Source: Truepera radiovictrix DSM 17093 (GTDB taxonomy: Bacteria; Deinococcota; Deinococci; Deinococcales; Trueperaceae). Taken from it: a stretch of 64,000 nucleotides of DNA. Below are positions 42,959-46,743 of the stretch, piece after piece. Position numbers and translations under genes: made by a program. The notes under the pieces are model-generated. The model was not told the origin of the DNA and searched no databases. It was given only the letters and a program-made list of their open reading frames with translations. Numbering within the stretch: position 1 is the first letter of the stretch; the number at the start of each line of letters is the position of its first letter. The DNA lies in contig NC_014221.1 in the NCBI RefSeq assembly GCF_000092425.1, positions 338,001 to 402,000 of the forward strand, written 5' to 3'.

Positions 42959-43477
42959 CTAGCGCGGCGCGATCCGGCGCACGAGTTTGGGGGGGAGCGC
43001 GGTGTGGAGCGCCATCCTGCCGGGTCCGAGGGAGCCCTCGAGGCGCACCAGCATCCCCTTGCGCATCCGGAGCGCCATCCCGCTCGCGTCGCCGGTGAGC
43101 AGGTACGCGGCGAGTTCGCCCAAGTAGGGTTCGTGGCCGACGAGCGCGACGCAGCGGTCGCTCGGCCCCAGCGTCGCCGCGAGGGTGCCCAAAAGACCGG
43201 GGTAGTCGTCGTGCGTCAGAGCGCTGAGGGGCTCTGCGCGGCCCCCTTTGGCGTGGGGCGCGAGGGGCGCTGCGGTCTCCGCGGCGCGCGTGTAGGGGCT
43301 CGAGAACAGCCGGTCGAAGCGCACCTCGAGCGCGGCGAGCGCGCCCCTAAGCGCCGCGGCCTGGGCGCGGCCCTTGGCGCTCAAGGGGCGCAGGTGGTCG
43401 TTCGGGTCGTTCGGGTCGCCCTGCCCCGCGTGGGCGTGGCGCACGAGGTAGAGCGTGAGGTGCTGCGCGTCCGGCAT
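42959..43477 (-). CDS. sixA: Phosphohistidine phosphatase SixA
   Basis: 172 aa, histidine phosphatase superfamily. The phosphate-accepting motif is LVRHAHAG, with DHLRPLSAKGRAQA, SSPYTRAAETA and VGHEPYLGELAAYL holding the second His. SixA removes phosphate from phosphohistidine on HPt domains or PTS proteins. The gene follows the CYTH gene with a 1-nt gap (TGATATG), a pairing often seen with polyphosphate-related CYTH/CHAD proteins. Confidence 0.88.
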   Translation of the reverse strand: MPDAQHLTLYLVRHAHAGQGDPNDPNDHLRPLSAKGRAQAAALRGALAALEVRFDRLFSSPYTRAAETAAPLAPHAKGGRAEPLSALTHDDYPGLLGTLAATLGPSDRCVALVGHEPYLGELAAYLLTGDASGMALRMRKGMLVRLEGSLGPGRMALHTALPPKLVRRIAPR

Positions 43478-43478
43478 A

Positions 43479-44138
43479 TCAAGCCCCCAGGAGCATCAGC
43501 GCGTGCGTGACCTTGTCGTGACGGTGCGGCGTGAGCGCGGCGTGCGCGGCGAGCGCCGCCGCGACCGCCTCGAGCGCGCCGGCCGGGGCGTCCGGGGCGG
43601 CCTCGAGTTCGAGCTCTAGAAACTGCACCGTCTGCGCGGGCGCGCTGGCATGTGGCCGCCGCGCCCGCACCGTATCGAAACTCAGCTCGGCGAGACCCCG
43701 CGCCCCCGGCTGCGGGGGGTGCAGGCCGACGCGGCGGCGGTGGGTGGCGATCCGCAGAAGCGGCGTGAGCGCGGCGAGGTCGTCCTCCGCAGCGAGCCCC
43801 CCCAACGCCGCGAGGCGCGTGCGGATCGCCGCGGGCCACGCGACGGCGTCCTCGGCCGCCGTCGCCAGCGGCAGCTCGAGCTCCTCGCGTTCGTGAAAGC
43901 CCCCCCGAACGCGCCCGGGCGCTTTAAGGGTGACGAGCTGCTGGCCCGCAAAGCGCCGCACGCGCAGCGCGACCCCGCGCCGGCGCAGCACCTCCCCCGG
44001 CAGGTCGTAGTAGAGGTCCTCCTGGTGCCGTTCGCCGAGCGGCTCGGGGACGAGGCCGCAGCTGCGCAGCGCCCCTTGCAACGCCTCGAGGGGGGGGAAG
44101 GCCGGTTCGACCAGCCACTTGTATTCGCGCTCAACCAC
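43479..44138 (-). CDS. CYTH domain protein
   Basis: 219 aa. Starts with the signature EREYKW (ExExK) and has EDLYYDLPGEVLRRRGVALRVRR and VTLKAPGRV, the tunnel strands of CYTH triphosphate-binding enzymes. Members act on inorganic triphosphate, thiamine triphosphate or adenylate. No CHAD domain is attached. Coupled to sixA. Confidence 0.87.
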   Translation of the reverse strand: MVEREYKWLVEPAFPPLEALQGALRSCGLVPEPLGERHQEDLYYDLPGEVLRRRGVALRVRRFAGQQLVTLKAPGRVRGGFHEREELELPLATAAEDAVAWPAAIRTRLAALGGLAAEDDLAALTPLLRIATHRRRVGLHPPQPGARGLAELSFDTVRARRPHASAPAQTVQFLELELEAAPDAPAGALEAVAAALAAHAALTPHRHDKVTHALMLLGA

Positions 44139-44209: not shown

Positions 44210-44238
44210 TTGACACACCCCCGAGCGCTGCCTATACT
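44210..44238 (+). promoter_or_regulatory. Strong sigma-70-type promoter of the lexA-like operon
   Basis: TTGACA (44210-44215), 17 bp, TATACT (44233-44238): one of only two near-consensus two-box promoters I found in the window. Confidence 0.85.
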
Positions 44239-44244
44239 GAGGCG

Positions 44245-44263
44245 TACCTTAATTGATTAGGTA
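44245..44263 (+). promoter_or_regulatory. Operator-like palindrome over the transcription start
   Basis: TACCTTAATTGATTAGGTA is an imperfect dyad (6 of 9 pairs; perfect TACCT/AGGTA arms). It begins 7 nt after the -10, so it covers the expected transcription start, and GCGTA/TACGC sequences extend it on both sides. AT-rich against a very GC-rich background. The first gene encodes a LexA-type repressor, so autoregulation through this site is likely. Confidence 0.6.
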
Positions 44264-44322
44264 TACGCGTCGAGGCCCCGCCTCCGCGTCCAAAAACCTC
44301 TGCTACCGGCAAAAGGACCTTC

Positions 44323-44937
44323 ATGAACGAGCTTCCCAAGATGCAGCGCAAAGTCTACGAACGCCTCTGCGAGTACAAAGAGCGCACGGGCCGTTCGCCC
44401 GAGCTGTCGGTCTTCGCGCGCGACCTCAACATCCACTACGTCTCGCTGCGCCAGCATCTCGAAGCGCTGCACCGCAAGGGCTACGTGATCTTTGAGAGCC
44501 GCGGCCGCGGCCAGTCGCCGCGCCTCGAGCTCCCCGCGCGGGCGACCGGGGTCCCCGTTTTGGGGAGCATCCCGGCGGGGCCGCTCAGCGAAGCGCTCGC
44601 CGAGCCCGAAGGGTTTTTGCCGCTCACGGGAGCCCGCCAGCAGTTTGCCCTGCGCGTTAGCGGGGACTCGATGGCTGACCTTATCCAAGACGGCGACATC
44701 GTGCTCTTTCGCAAAGGGATGCCGACGCGTAGCGGCGAGATCTGCGCGGTGCGGGTCGGTAACAGTGAGGTGACCCTGAAGTACGTCGACCATCACGAAC
44801 CGCAGACCGTCACCCTGCGCCCGCACAACCCGCAGTACCCCACGGTCGCCGTGCCCGCTACCGAGGTGCACATCGAAGGGGTGTACTTGGGGCTCGTGCG
44901 TGGCGAACTGATCGGCGCGCTTTACGAAGCGCTCTAG
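44323..44937 (+). CDS. lexA: LexA-type self-cleaving repressor (S24 family)
   Basis: 204 aa. An N-terminal winged helix (QRKVYERLCEYKERTGRSPELSVFARDL ... HYVSLRQHLEALHRKGYV), a predicted self-cleavage site A85-G86 in SIPAGPL, nucleophile S116 in SGDSMADLI, and general base K153 in VTLKYV. These spacings match LexA. RecA-stimulated self-cleavage should derepress its targets after DNA damage. AAAGGA precedes the ATG. First gene of an operon with DdrA/Rad52-like and zinc-finger genes; whether it is the cell's only LexA or a specialised paralogue cannot be told. Confidence 0.88.
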   Translation: MNELPKMQRKVYERLCEYKERTGRSPELSVFARDLNIHYVSLRQHLEALHRKGYVIFESRGRGQSPRLELPARATGVPVLGSIPAGPLSEALAEPEGFLPLTGARQQFALRVSGDSMADLIQDGDIVLFRKGMPTRSGEICAVRVGNSEVTLKYVDHHEPQTVTLRPHNPQYPTVAVPATEVHIEGVYLGLVRGELIGALYEAL

Positions 44938-45058
44938 CACCCGCACGTCCGGGTTGGGTCCGCGCCATCGGCCAAGATACCCGCGACCCACCCAGGCGTG
45001 CGCAACCCCTCGAGACGCGCCCCGCACCCTCGCGGTGCGGCGCAGCCAAGGAGAACCG

Positions 45059-45415
45059 ATGAACCATCCTGCCCTACTCTTTAGAGCGTTGTCAAGCGCG
45101 TGGCAGCACGACGCGGCGAGCCCGCACGTCGACCTCTTGGCGGCCGACCTGGCGGCCGCCGTGGGGCGCAGCCGCCACCCCCTATGCGTCGGCCTCGTCC
45201 GCAAAGAGGCGATCGCCAAGCTTTACGGCCTCGTCTACCTGCTCGACGGCTACGGCGTCACGCTGCGCCAGCGCTACCGCGACGGGGGCGGCGCGTTCGT
45301 CTACGCCGAGCGTCGCGGCGAGGTCCCGAGCGAGTTCGCCGGTGCGGTGGTGCTCGAGCACCGTTTGGCGGTGCTGAGCGCCCCGCCCGCCCCGGCGCTG
45401 GCAGAGGCGGCCTGA
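45059..45415 (+). CDS. Unknown 118-aa protein of the lexA-ddrA operon
   Basis: 118 aa, soluble, with AAGGAG before the ATG at 45059. Central stretch VGLVRKEAIAKLYGLVYLLDGYGVTLRQRYRDG is the best-ordered part; the C-terminus is Ala/Pro-rich. No motif recognised. It follows lexA by 121 bp (which holds a 7-bp stem-loop, CCGCACC/GGTGCGG at 45022-45040) and precedes ddrA by a single base, so co-expression with the DNA-repair protein is likely. Confidence 0.75.
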   Translation: MNHPALLFRALSSAWQHDAASPHVDLLAADLAAAVGRSRHPLCVGLVRKEAIAKLYGLVYLLDGYGVTLRQRYRDGGGAFVYAERRGEVPSEFAGAVVLEHRLAVLSAPPAPALAEAA

Positions 45416-45416
45416 G

Positions 45417-46352
45417 ATGGCCCCGCAAGAGCGTTCCGAAGCGCTGCTCGGCGCGGGCTACTTGACGTGGCCCGAGCTCCTAGCGCAGCTCGCCGAGCCC
45501 TTTCCGGTAGAGGCCATCTCCTGGCGCGCGGGCAGCGTCTCGCGCGACAAAAAGCGCGCCCAAGCGCTACCTTACGCCGAACCGCGCGTCTACGAAGACC
45601 GCCTCAACGCCCTCTGCCCGGGGCTCTGGAGCGTCGCCTTCCGGCCCTGGGGTGAGCGCATCATCTGCGAGCTCACCATCGGCGCCGTGGGGCCAGACGG
45701 GGCGATCCTCTACGCGACGCGCGCCTCGACCGGCGAGCCGGGCGACAGCCCCGCGGCGGTCGCTGGCACCGCCGCCGAGGCGCAGGCGTTCAAGCGCGCC
45801 TGCAGCAAGTTCGGCCTCGGCCGCTACCTCTACGACGTCCCCATCACGTGGGTCGACTACGACGACGCCAGCCGCAAGCTGCTGCAGACGCCGAGCTTGC
45901 CACAGTCACGGCCACTAGGCCGGCGGCTGGAGCCGCTAACTGAGCGGTCGCTACGCGCAACTTCGTACTCACGGCCACTAGGCCGGCGGCTGGAGCCGCT
46001 AACCGAGGCGCGCTTTGTGCCGGAAGCGCAGCCAGCTGCGAAGACGCCGCGCGCATCCCGAGAGGGGACGCAGGCGCCCCCCCAGAGTACCCCTGCGAGC
46101 GCTCCCGGCGCGCGGCTGCTGCCCCCGCCGGAGACCGCGCCACCGGCTGCGGCGCTGACGCCGGCCCGCGCCGAGGCGATGCACCGCGAACTGGAGAAGC
46201 TCGGGTTGTCGCGCTCCGCCCAGCAGCGGCTCGCTAAGAGCGTGCTGGGGCGCGACGTCGCCGCCTTCGACCAGCTTTTAGAGAGCGAAGCGCTAGAGGT
46301 GTGGAACGCGGCCAAGCGCGCCCAAACGCCGCGGCGCGCGGTGGGTTTTTAG
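45417..46352 (+). CDS. ddrA: DdrA / Rad52-family single-strand annealing protein
   Basis: 311 aa. The N-terminal ~155 residues carry the Rad52/22 core: VSRDKKRAQALPYAEPRVYEDRLN, TIGAVGPDGAILYATRASTG and EAQAFKRACSKFGLGRYLYDV. DdrA-type proteins bind 3' single-strand ends and protect broken DNA after irradiation. Residues 164-205 are two 21-aa units from a duplicated palindromic DNA element (SRPLGRRLEPLTE twice), a clear insert. A Pro/Ala-rich linker and a helical C-terminal segment (RAEAMHRELEKLGLSRSAQQRL) follow. Begins one base after the 118-aa gene stop. Confidence 0.85.
   Translation: MAPQERSEALLGAGYLTWPELLAQLAEPFPVEAISWRAGSVSRDKKRAQALPYAEPRVYEDRLNALCPGLWSVAFRPWGERIICELTIGAVGPDGAILYATRASTGEPGDSPAAVAGTAAEAQAFKRACSKFGLGRYLYDVPITWVDYDDASRKLLQTPSLPQSRPLGRRLEPLTERSLRATSYSRPLGRRLEPLTEARFVPEAQPAAKTPRASREGTQAPPQSTPASAPGARLLPPPETAPPAAALTPARAEAMHRELEKLGLSRSAQQRLAKSVLGRDVAAFDQLLESEALEVWNAAKRAQTPRRAVGF
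45906..46007 (+). repeat. Two in-frame copies of a palindromic element inside ddrA
   Basis: A 39-nt word occurs at 45906-45944 and 45969-46007 with one mismatch, spaced 63 bp (21 codons). Each copy holds two hairpins: CGGCC-acta-GGCCG and GCGGCT-gg-AGCCGC. It lies in the linker after the Rad52 core and keeps the frame open. Confidence 0.85.
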
Positions 46353-46355
46353 GGG

Positions 46356-46520
46356 GTGGCGAACGTGCCGACCCTAGAAGCCGGCGTTGAATCCGCCGGT
46401 ACGGTCTACCGCTGTCCGAAGTGCAAGCGCGACGTGACCGTGCTCCTCGCGCGCGCCTCGGTCAGCTGCAGCCGCTGCGGCCGCGCGATGCGGCGCGTCG
46501 CCGATGCGCGCCCCTCCTGA
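46356..46520 (+). CDS. 54-aa zinc-ribbon protein
   Basis: A short gene read directly from the sequence: GTG at 46356, TGA at 46518. The protein has two CxxC knuckles, YRCPKCKRD near residue 20 and SCSRCGRAM near residue 40, spaced as in a zinc ribbon. It begins 3 nt after the ddrA stop and overlaps the next zinc-finger gene by 17 nt, which supports it as coding. Possible role as a DNA-binding accessory to DdrA; inference. Confidence 0.75.
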   Translation: MANVPTLEAGVESAGTVYRCPKCKRDVTVLLARASVSCSRCGRAMRRVADARPS

Positions 46521-46743
46521 ACCTTCGCTCCCCGAGCTGCACCCCGTGGCCTGCCCAGCGTGCGGCGGGGACGGCTACACCCTCGTAGCGGGTAGCGGCG
46601 AGGACGAGGTGGGGTGCGCCGCGTGCGGCGGCTTCGGCGTCGTCGAGGTCTGCTCGGGGTGTGGGGCGGTGCCAGCGCTCGAGGGCGGTTACGAGGTGTG
46701 CCGCTGCACCGAGGCGGCGCTGCCGGAGCGGCGCGCCGCCTAG
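46504..46743 (+). CDS. DnaJ-type zinc-finger protein
   Basis: 79 aa. Cysteine motifs VACPACGGDGYT, VGCAACGGFGVV, EVCSGCGAVP and VCRCT: the CxxCxGxG repeats of the DnaJ central zinc finger, without a J domain. It overlaps the zinc-ribbon gene and is the last gene on the plus strand before a convergent HemC-like gene. A nucleic-acid or protein-binding adaptor is plausible; function unknown. Confidence 0.75.
   Translation: MRAPPEPSLPELHPVACPACGGDGYTLVAGSGEDEVGCAACGGFGVVEVCSGCGAVPALEGGYEVCRCTEAALPERRAA

Follow-up and report, generated by a model that had tools for sequence, protein, structure and literature searches.

In the genome of Truepera radiovictrix (G000; a single contig of 3,260,398 bases), a lexA gene heads a row of five co-directional ORFs, followed by genes for a 118-aa protein, a Rad52/Erf-type single-strand annealing protein, a 54-aa zinc ribbon and a 79-aa CXXCXGXG protein, and the whole set is probably (about three chances in four, in our estimate) one LexA-repressed, damage-inducible operon. 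The best reading of the four genes behind lexA (hereafter, the cassette), drawn from sequence comparison, is that of a putative SOS-inducible, phage-derived single-strand-annealing module. The locus lies within the analyzed window (G000:C1:338001-402000, the whole stretch of 64 kb), and its features are collected in Table 1. The intervals between the five ORFs are, in order, 121, 1 and 3 nt, with the last pair overlapping by 17 nt; both the positions of the ORFs and the close packing after the 118-aa gene agree with the initial annotation of this DNA.

Table 1. Features of the lexA/cassette locus (positions within the window)
Feature	Position	Strand	Remarks
SixA-like gene	42959-43477		with the CYTH-domain gene, a synteny anchor; not a cassette member
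CYTH-domain gene	43479..44138	-	synteny anchor outside the cassette; lies close to the cassette in G017 and G018 as well
Sigma-70 promoter TTGACA-N17-TATACT	44210..44238	+	11/12 consensus; sole match in 3.1 kb (0.1 expected)
LexA box TACCTTAATTGATTAGGTA	44245..44263	.	6 nt 3' of the -10; 0 mismatches to TACCTNANNNNNTNAGGTA
lexA, 204 aa	44323..44937	+	Pfam LexA_DNA_bind and Peptidase_S24, both over cut-off; PDB LexA matches
118-aa protein	45059..45415	+	no Pfam, NCBIfam or PHROG match
Rad52/Erf-type single-strand annealing protein, 311 aa	45417..46352	+	PF04098 weak but over cut-off; PHROG 1097 Erf-like, 1.1e-17
In-frame insert in the disordered linker of the annealase	45910..46003	+	two 31-nt repeat copies (45910, 45973)
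C-terminal helical domain of the annealase (residues 247-303)	46155..46325	+	conserved in alignment A2; confident helices in the model
Terminator-like hairpin at the end of the annealase gene	46327-46343		scan: 3 found vs. 1.7 expected
54-aa zinc ribbon (CPKC...CSRC)	46356..46520	+	four Cys invariant in four relatives; weak zinc-ribbon profile matches
79-aa CXXCXGXG protein	46504..46743	+	G018 and G002 have homologues immediately downstream; similar protein beside the G008 annealase

The product of the first gene combines an N-terminal wHTH domain with an S24 peptidase domain, and its A85-G86, S116 and K153, already pointed out in the initial annotation, align with the Ala-Gly cleavage site and the Ser/Lys catalytic dyad of solved LexA structures, so that its identity as LexA is upheld by both profiles and structural alignment, with a score narrowly below the NCBIfam equivalog cut-off (97 of 110.95 bits). 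An operator common to SOS genes is found in its own promoter, in the layout TTGACA-N17-TATACT-N6-palindrome; this near-consensus promoter and its dyad, likewise proposed at the outset, are both present, and the dyad is the only copy with up to two mismatches in the 64-kb window. A search of the 3.26-Mb genome with TACCTNANTNNNTNAGGTA returned few strong sites vs. one control match, and a relaxed pattern returned nine sites with at most one mismatch vs. none for the reversed-pattern control (the list of boxes and regulon members was built by pattern search, not by a full matrix scan). The palindrome TACCTNANNNNNTNAGGTA is, as judged from these patterns, the genome-wide LexA box, to which LexA would bind; no description of this Trueperaceae box was found in the open-access literature.

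Genes neighboring the box in G000 include, besides lexA, DUF3072-uvrB, a photolyase gene, and genes for a RecA-like AAA_24 ATPase and a GemA-like protein, as well as a BrnT/BrnA toxin-antitoxin pair, an amylase-like gene and a CRP-family gene. There are two recA genes (756345-757361, L265; 2330466-2331467, L266), and the stand-alone second one (G000:C1:756345-757361) has an upstream box with two mismatches, while a search at the cinA-recA copy found none. Across the family, at least 19 of 30 lexA genes have an upstream box with no more than two mismatches, and boxes are also found 5' of recA in five genomes (G008, G006, G017, G020 and G018), of imuB in G017 and of dnaE2 in G006. Within the G000 set, the toxin-antitoxin pair lies directly 3' of a perfect box (L083:3012-3754; G000:C1:2311611), the 166-aa GemA-like protein, of a type known from phage Mu, is likewise encoded 3' of a box (L087:2502-3002; G000:C1:2742307), and the AAA_24 ATPase gene, with a box at its start (L085:2001-3026; G000:C1:1595185), possibly encodes a Sak4-like second recombination protein of the SOS set. 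In several relatives recA is fragmented in the assemblies, which suggests two copies there too.

The link between box and cassette is kept in relatives that carry the cassette without lexA. Genomes G018 and G002 hold all four genes in the order seen in G000 (118-aa protein, annealase, zinc ribbon, CXXCXGXG protein), and G017 holds the first three; homologues of the small proteins thus do accompany the annealase, as a check of conserved gene order proposed earlier had called for. In all three, an exact LexA box is placed 6 nt 3' of TATACT in a TTGACA-N17/18-TATACT promoter, as in G000, and between G018 and G002 promoter and box are conserved where the flanks have diverged. The chance of finding boxes within 300 bp upstream in all three genomes is ~1e-9 by genome-wide densities, a figure to be read with the fact that G018 and G002 share a genus and thus represent fewer independent events. 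Since the link persists at loci without lexA, the wiring is no accident of neighborhood, and regulation of the cassette by LexA (with its presumed binding and induction) is strongly supported at the level of sequence. Hence the LexA-governed annealing module of the initial annotation stands with respect to its control but not with respect to its annealase, which is not DdrA (see below). The distribution of the cassette is patchy, with full or three-gene versions in 4 of 37 family genomes and none in the congeneric G001. Partial versions include an annealase alone behind a two-mismatch box (G005), a second copy in G017 (annealase and zinc ribbon behind a three-mismatch box) and, in G008, an annealase accompanied by a CXXCXGXG protein and by a 112-aa protein that shares 29% identity with the 118-aa one; no LexA box was found at this G008 locus, which has an integrase gene and an ArdC-like gene nearby.

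The adjacency of lexA and cassette appears to be a derived state. In G017 and G018, the SixA-CYTH genes and an EF-G-like gene are within a few kb of the cassette, with lexA elsewhere; in G000, SixA-CYTH adjoins lexA, which in turn adjoins the cassette. The lexA genes of G017, G003, G005, G006 and G008 have CRP/Fnr-like genes as neighbors, in most cases together with a NifU-like gene. Because lexA is elsewhere in the relatives, it has apparently moved into the place of the cassette in G000, and the ancestral arrangement in the family would be a cassette with its own LexA box and a distant lexA. Of 20 other lexA promoters in the family, 18 have a box that overlaps the -10, whereas that of G000 follows the cassette-type layout, suggestive of lexA having been inserted downstream of the cassette promoter and ahead of the 118-aa gene, with the direction of the move presumed. 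Such promoter capture is only suggestive, since in G011 and G013 the lexA boxes are likewise downstream of the -10.

The annealase has a Rad52 fold by profile (PF04098, PHROG 1097) and by structure: an AlphaFold model built with 17 sequences shows, besides a disordered linker, a Rad52-like domain predicted with confidence and a C-terminal domain made of helices, and the first 16 Foldseek matches are Mgm101 and RAD52 (probability 1.00, E 8e-5), with no PDB match at the sequence level. The 311-aa protein would anneal complementary single strands. The 31-nt repeats of its linker are missing from relatives; they belong to a GC-rich dispersed tandem repeat (GGCCACTAGGCCGGCGGCTGGAGCCGCTAAC), of which related copies are found at G000:C1:1770166-1770408 (L092).

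For the 118-aa protein, the AlphaFold model (pLDDT about 90) predicts an alpha-alpha-beta-alpha-beta-beta domain (residues 1-87) and a disordered tail, with no significant fold match in the PDB or among viral folds; its family occurs in 4 of 111 genomes of the phylum, always beside an annealase (homologues in G002, G017 and G018), and a search of viral contigs returned no homologues. A match in G006 was discarded as a stretch within an unrelated reductase ORF. The last protein of the cassette, initially called a DnaJ-type zinc finger, does carry the CXXCXGXG motif, but in two repeats vs. the four of DnaJ, and the DnaJ name does not hold by profile (no Pfam DnaJ match; NCBIfam DnaJ E 0.98). Outside Trueperaceae, annealases of the cassette group often adjoin genes for SSB or small Cys-rich proteins, which fits a recombination module, and the 118-aa and zinc proteins are plausibly accessories of the annealase. 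In three Acidobacteria loci (L175, L191 and L194), an SSB gene, a Rad52-type annealase gene and a gene for a small two-CxxC protein stand in a row, so that small Cys-rich partners of this annealase group recur in another phylum.

The strong RNA structure predicted for the 121-nt gap between lexA and the cassette (-57.5 kcal/mol), as well as the fact that lexA adjoins the cassette in G000 alone, would suit an arrangement of separate transcription units that are neighbors by chance, in which case the G000 cassette would be expressed constitutively or under some other control. Against such an arrangement, which we consider unlikely although deserving of some weight, a sequence scan of the gap returned neither a promoter-like site nor a LexA box, a search for a T-tailed terminator there found none, and the cassette itself is headed by the box in all three relatives (G017, G018 and G002). 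The reading as one operon, with transcription presumably running through from lexA into the cassette, is thus preferred, although the terminator-like hairpin of Table 1 and the patchy distribution of the cassette count against it. An Rfam search of the region yielded no match, and PADLOC no convincing defence-system match.

Two further alternatives concern the origin of the annealase. A Rad52-family protein in a member of the radiation-resistant Deinococcota invites its assignment as a DdrA orthologue within a Deinococcus-type radiation/desiccation response, and the initial annotation had named it DdrA/Rad52. In a 48-sequence tree, the six Trueperaceae cassette annealases form a clade (100/99) within a group of phage, Chloroflexi and Acidobacteria proteins, and AU tests reject their union with the DdrA-like proteins of f5, a Deinococcus-like family (p 2.8e-5), and with the Rad52 paralogues of Trueperaceae (p 2.9e-4), one of which G000 encodes separately, at 1878816. 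Family f5, linked to RDRM and ddrO, serves as the DdrA reference in this tree in place of D. radiodurans DdrA; it is a reasonable reference, since its DdrA-like gene (L243-L246, in the same order) adjoins genes for a ddrO-like repressor and an M78/IrrE-like peptidase, and its common intergenic sequence TTACGTCTTGACCGTAA is one base from the RDRM TTATGTCTTGACCGTAA carried by ddrA (PMC1978522). The f5 DdrA-like protein has a Cys-rich N-terminus and a 116-aa partner, and its gene diverges from the ddrO-like/M78 pair over the RDRM-like palindrome, an annealase gene beside a master regulator that parallels the pairing of lexA and annealase in G000. Searches of G000 for an RDRM, M78/IrrE or full-length DdrO found none, which also disposes of RDRM/IrrE/DdrO control of the cassette. 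The Rad52 half of the earlier name therefore stands, but the DdrA half is rejected by the AU tests, and we regard orthology with DdrA as highly unlikely. The company of viral, Chloroflexi and Acidobacteria proteins in the tree, together with the G008 copy near an integrase and an ArdC-like gene, would fit a cassette left over from a phage or an integrative element, with lexA acting as the repressor of the element itself. We find this very improbable: the G000 LexA shares 58-67% identity with LexAs encoded at unrelated loci in the family, no second close LexA match occurs in its genome, its box is found at uvrB, recA and photolyase genes, and a profile search found no phage genes flanking the locus. 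A mobile origin of the annealase is accepted; its present-day control by an element is not.

In the operon as we read it, LexA would bind the box over its own start site and repress both lexA and the downstream cassette. Upon damage, RecA on single-stranded DNA would trigger self-cleavage of LexA, and the annealase would be made together with the second RecA, UvrB, photolyase and the RecA-like AAA ATPase. It might then pair resected complementary single strands in break repair, assisted by the 118-aa and the two zinc proteins. A bolder version, which we put forward tentatively and would sooner doubt than accept, holds that the small proteins may be dedicated annealase partners (loader/mediator, end recognition), that they may form an SOS-induced annealing machine with the SOS-induced second RecA, and that in Trueperaceae a LexA-run response may have taken the place of the IrrE/DdrO radiation response known from Deinococcus.

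Among known systems, DdrA of D. radiodurans (DR0423) is likewise a damage-controlled annealase of the Rad52 family from the same phylum, but it belongs to another subfamily, has other companions and is governed by RDRM and DdrO/IrrE, in place of which G000 has a LexA box. The lexA-imuB-dnaE2 operon of G001, a congener without the cassette (L104), shares with it a lexA that heads SOS-controlled DNA-processing genes, although its effectors are translesion polymerases rather than an annealase and zinc proteins. Phage Erf/Rad52-type annealases (PHROG 1097; Thermus phage MN1, Rhizobium phages) have the same domain (35-37% identity over it) within recombination modules; in contrast, the G000 cassette is chromosomal, lacks an adjoining exonuclease, and joins its annealase to a LexA box and to the 118-aa and zinc proteins as partners. 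Other LexA regulons of bacteria likewise combine an autoregulated lexA with recA, uvrB, dnaE2 and imuB, the difference in Trueperaceae being the box TACCTNANNNNNTNAGGTA; 17 LexA motifs had been reported by 2021 (PMC8565304). A search of the open-access literature found no description of an SOS-controlled Rad52-type cassette.

In Deinococcus, recA, uvrA/B and ddrA are under IrrE/DdrO, LexA being known for the dnaE2 mutagenesis cassette only (PMC8072749), and no targets of D. radiodurans LexA are known (PMC8072749, PMC4148983). The earlier suggestion that ddrA there answers to another pathway is thus borne out by the literature (PMC8072749, PMC1978522), and the wiring in Truepera, where the cassette lies behind a LexA box, does differ from it. 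Since relatives place the cassette behind a LexA box at other sites, Trueperaceae appear to wire to LexA a job that Deinococcus gives to an unrelated regulator. Overall, this family, which includes the radiation-resistant Truepera, has LexA boxes on recA, uvrB, dnaE2 and the annealase, with no IrrE/DdrO found in G000, and offers with Deinococcus a clean comparison of two regulators over overlapping repair toolkits, as well as a defined annealase with three small partners open to biochemical study.
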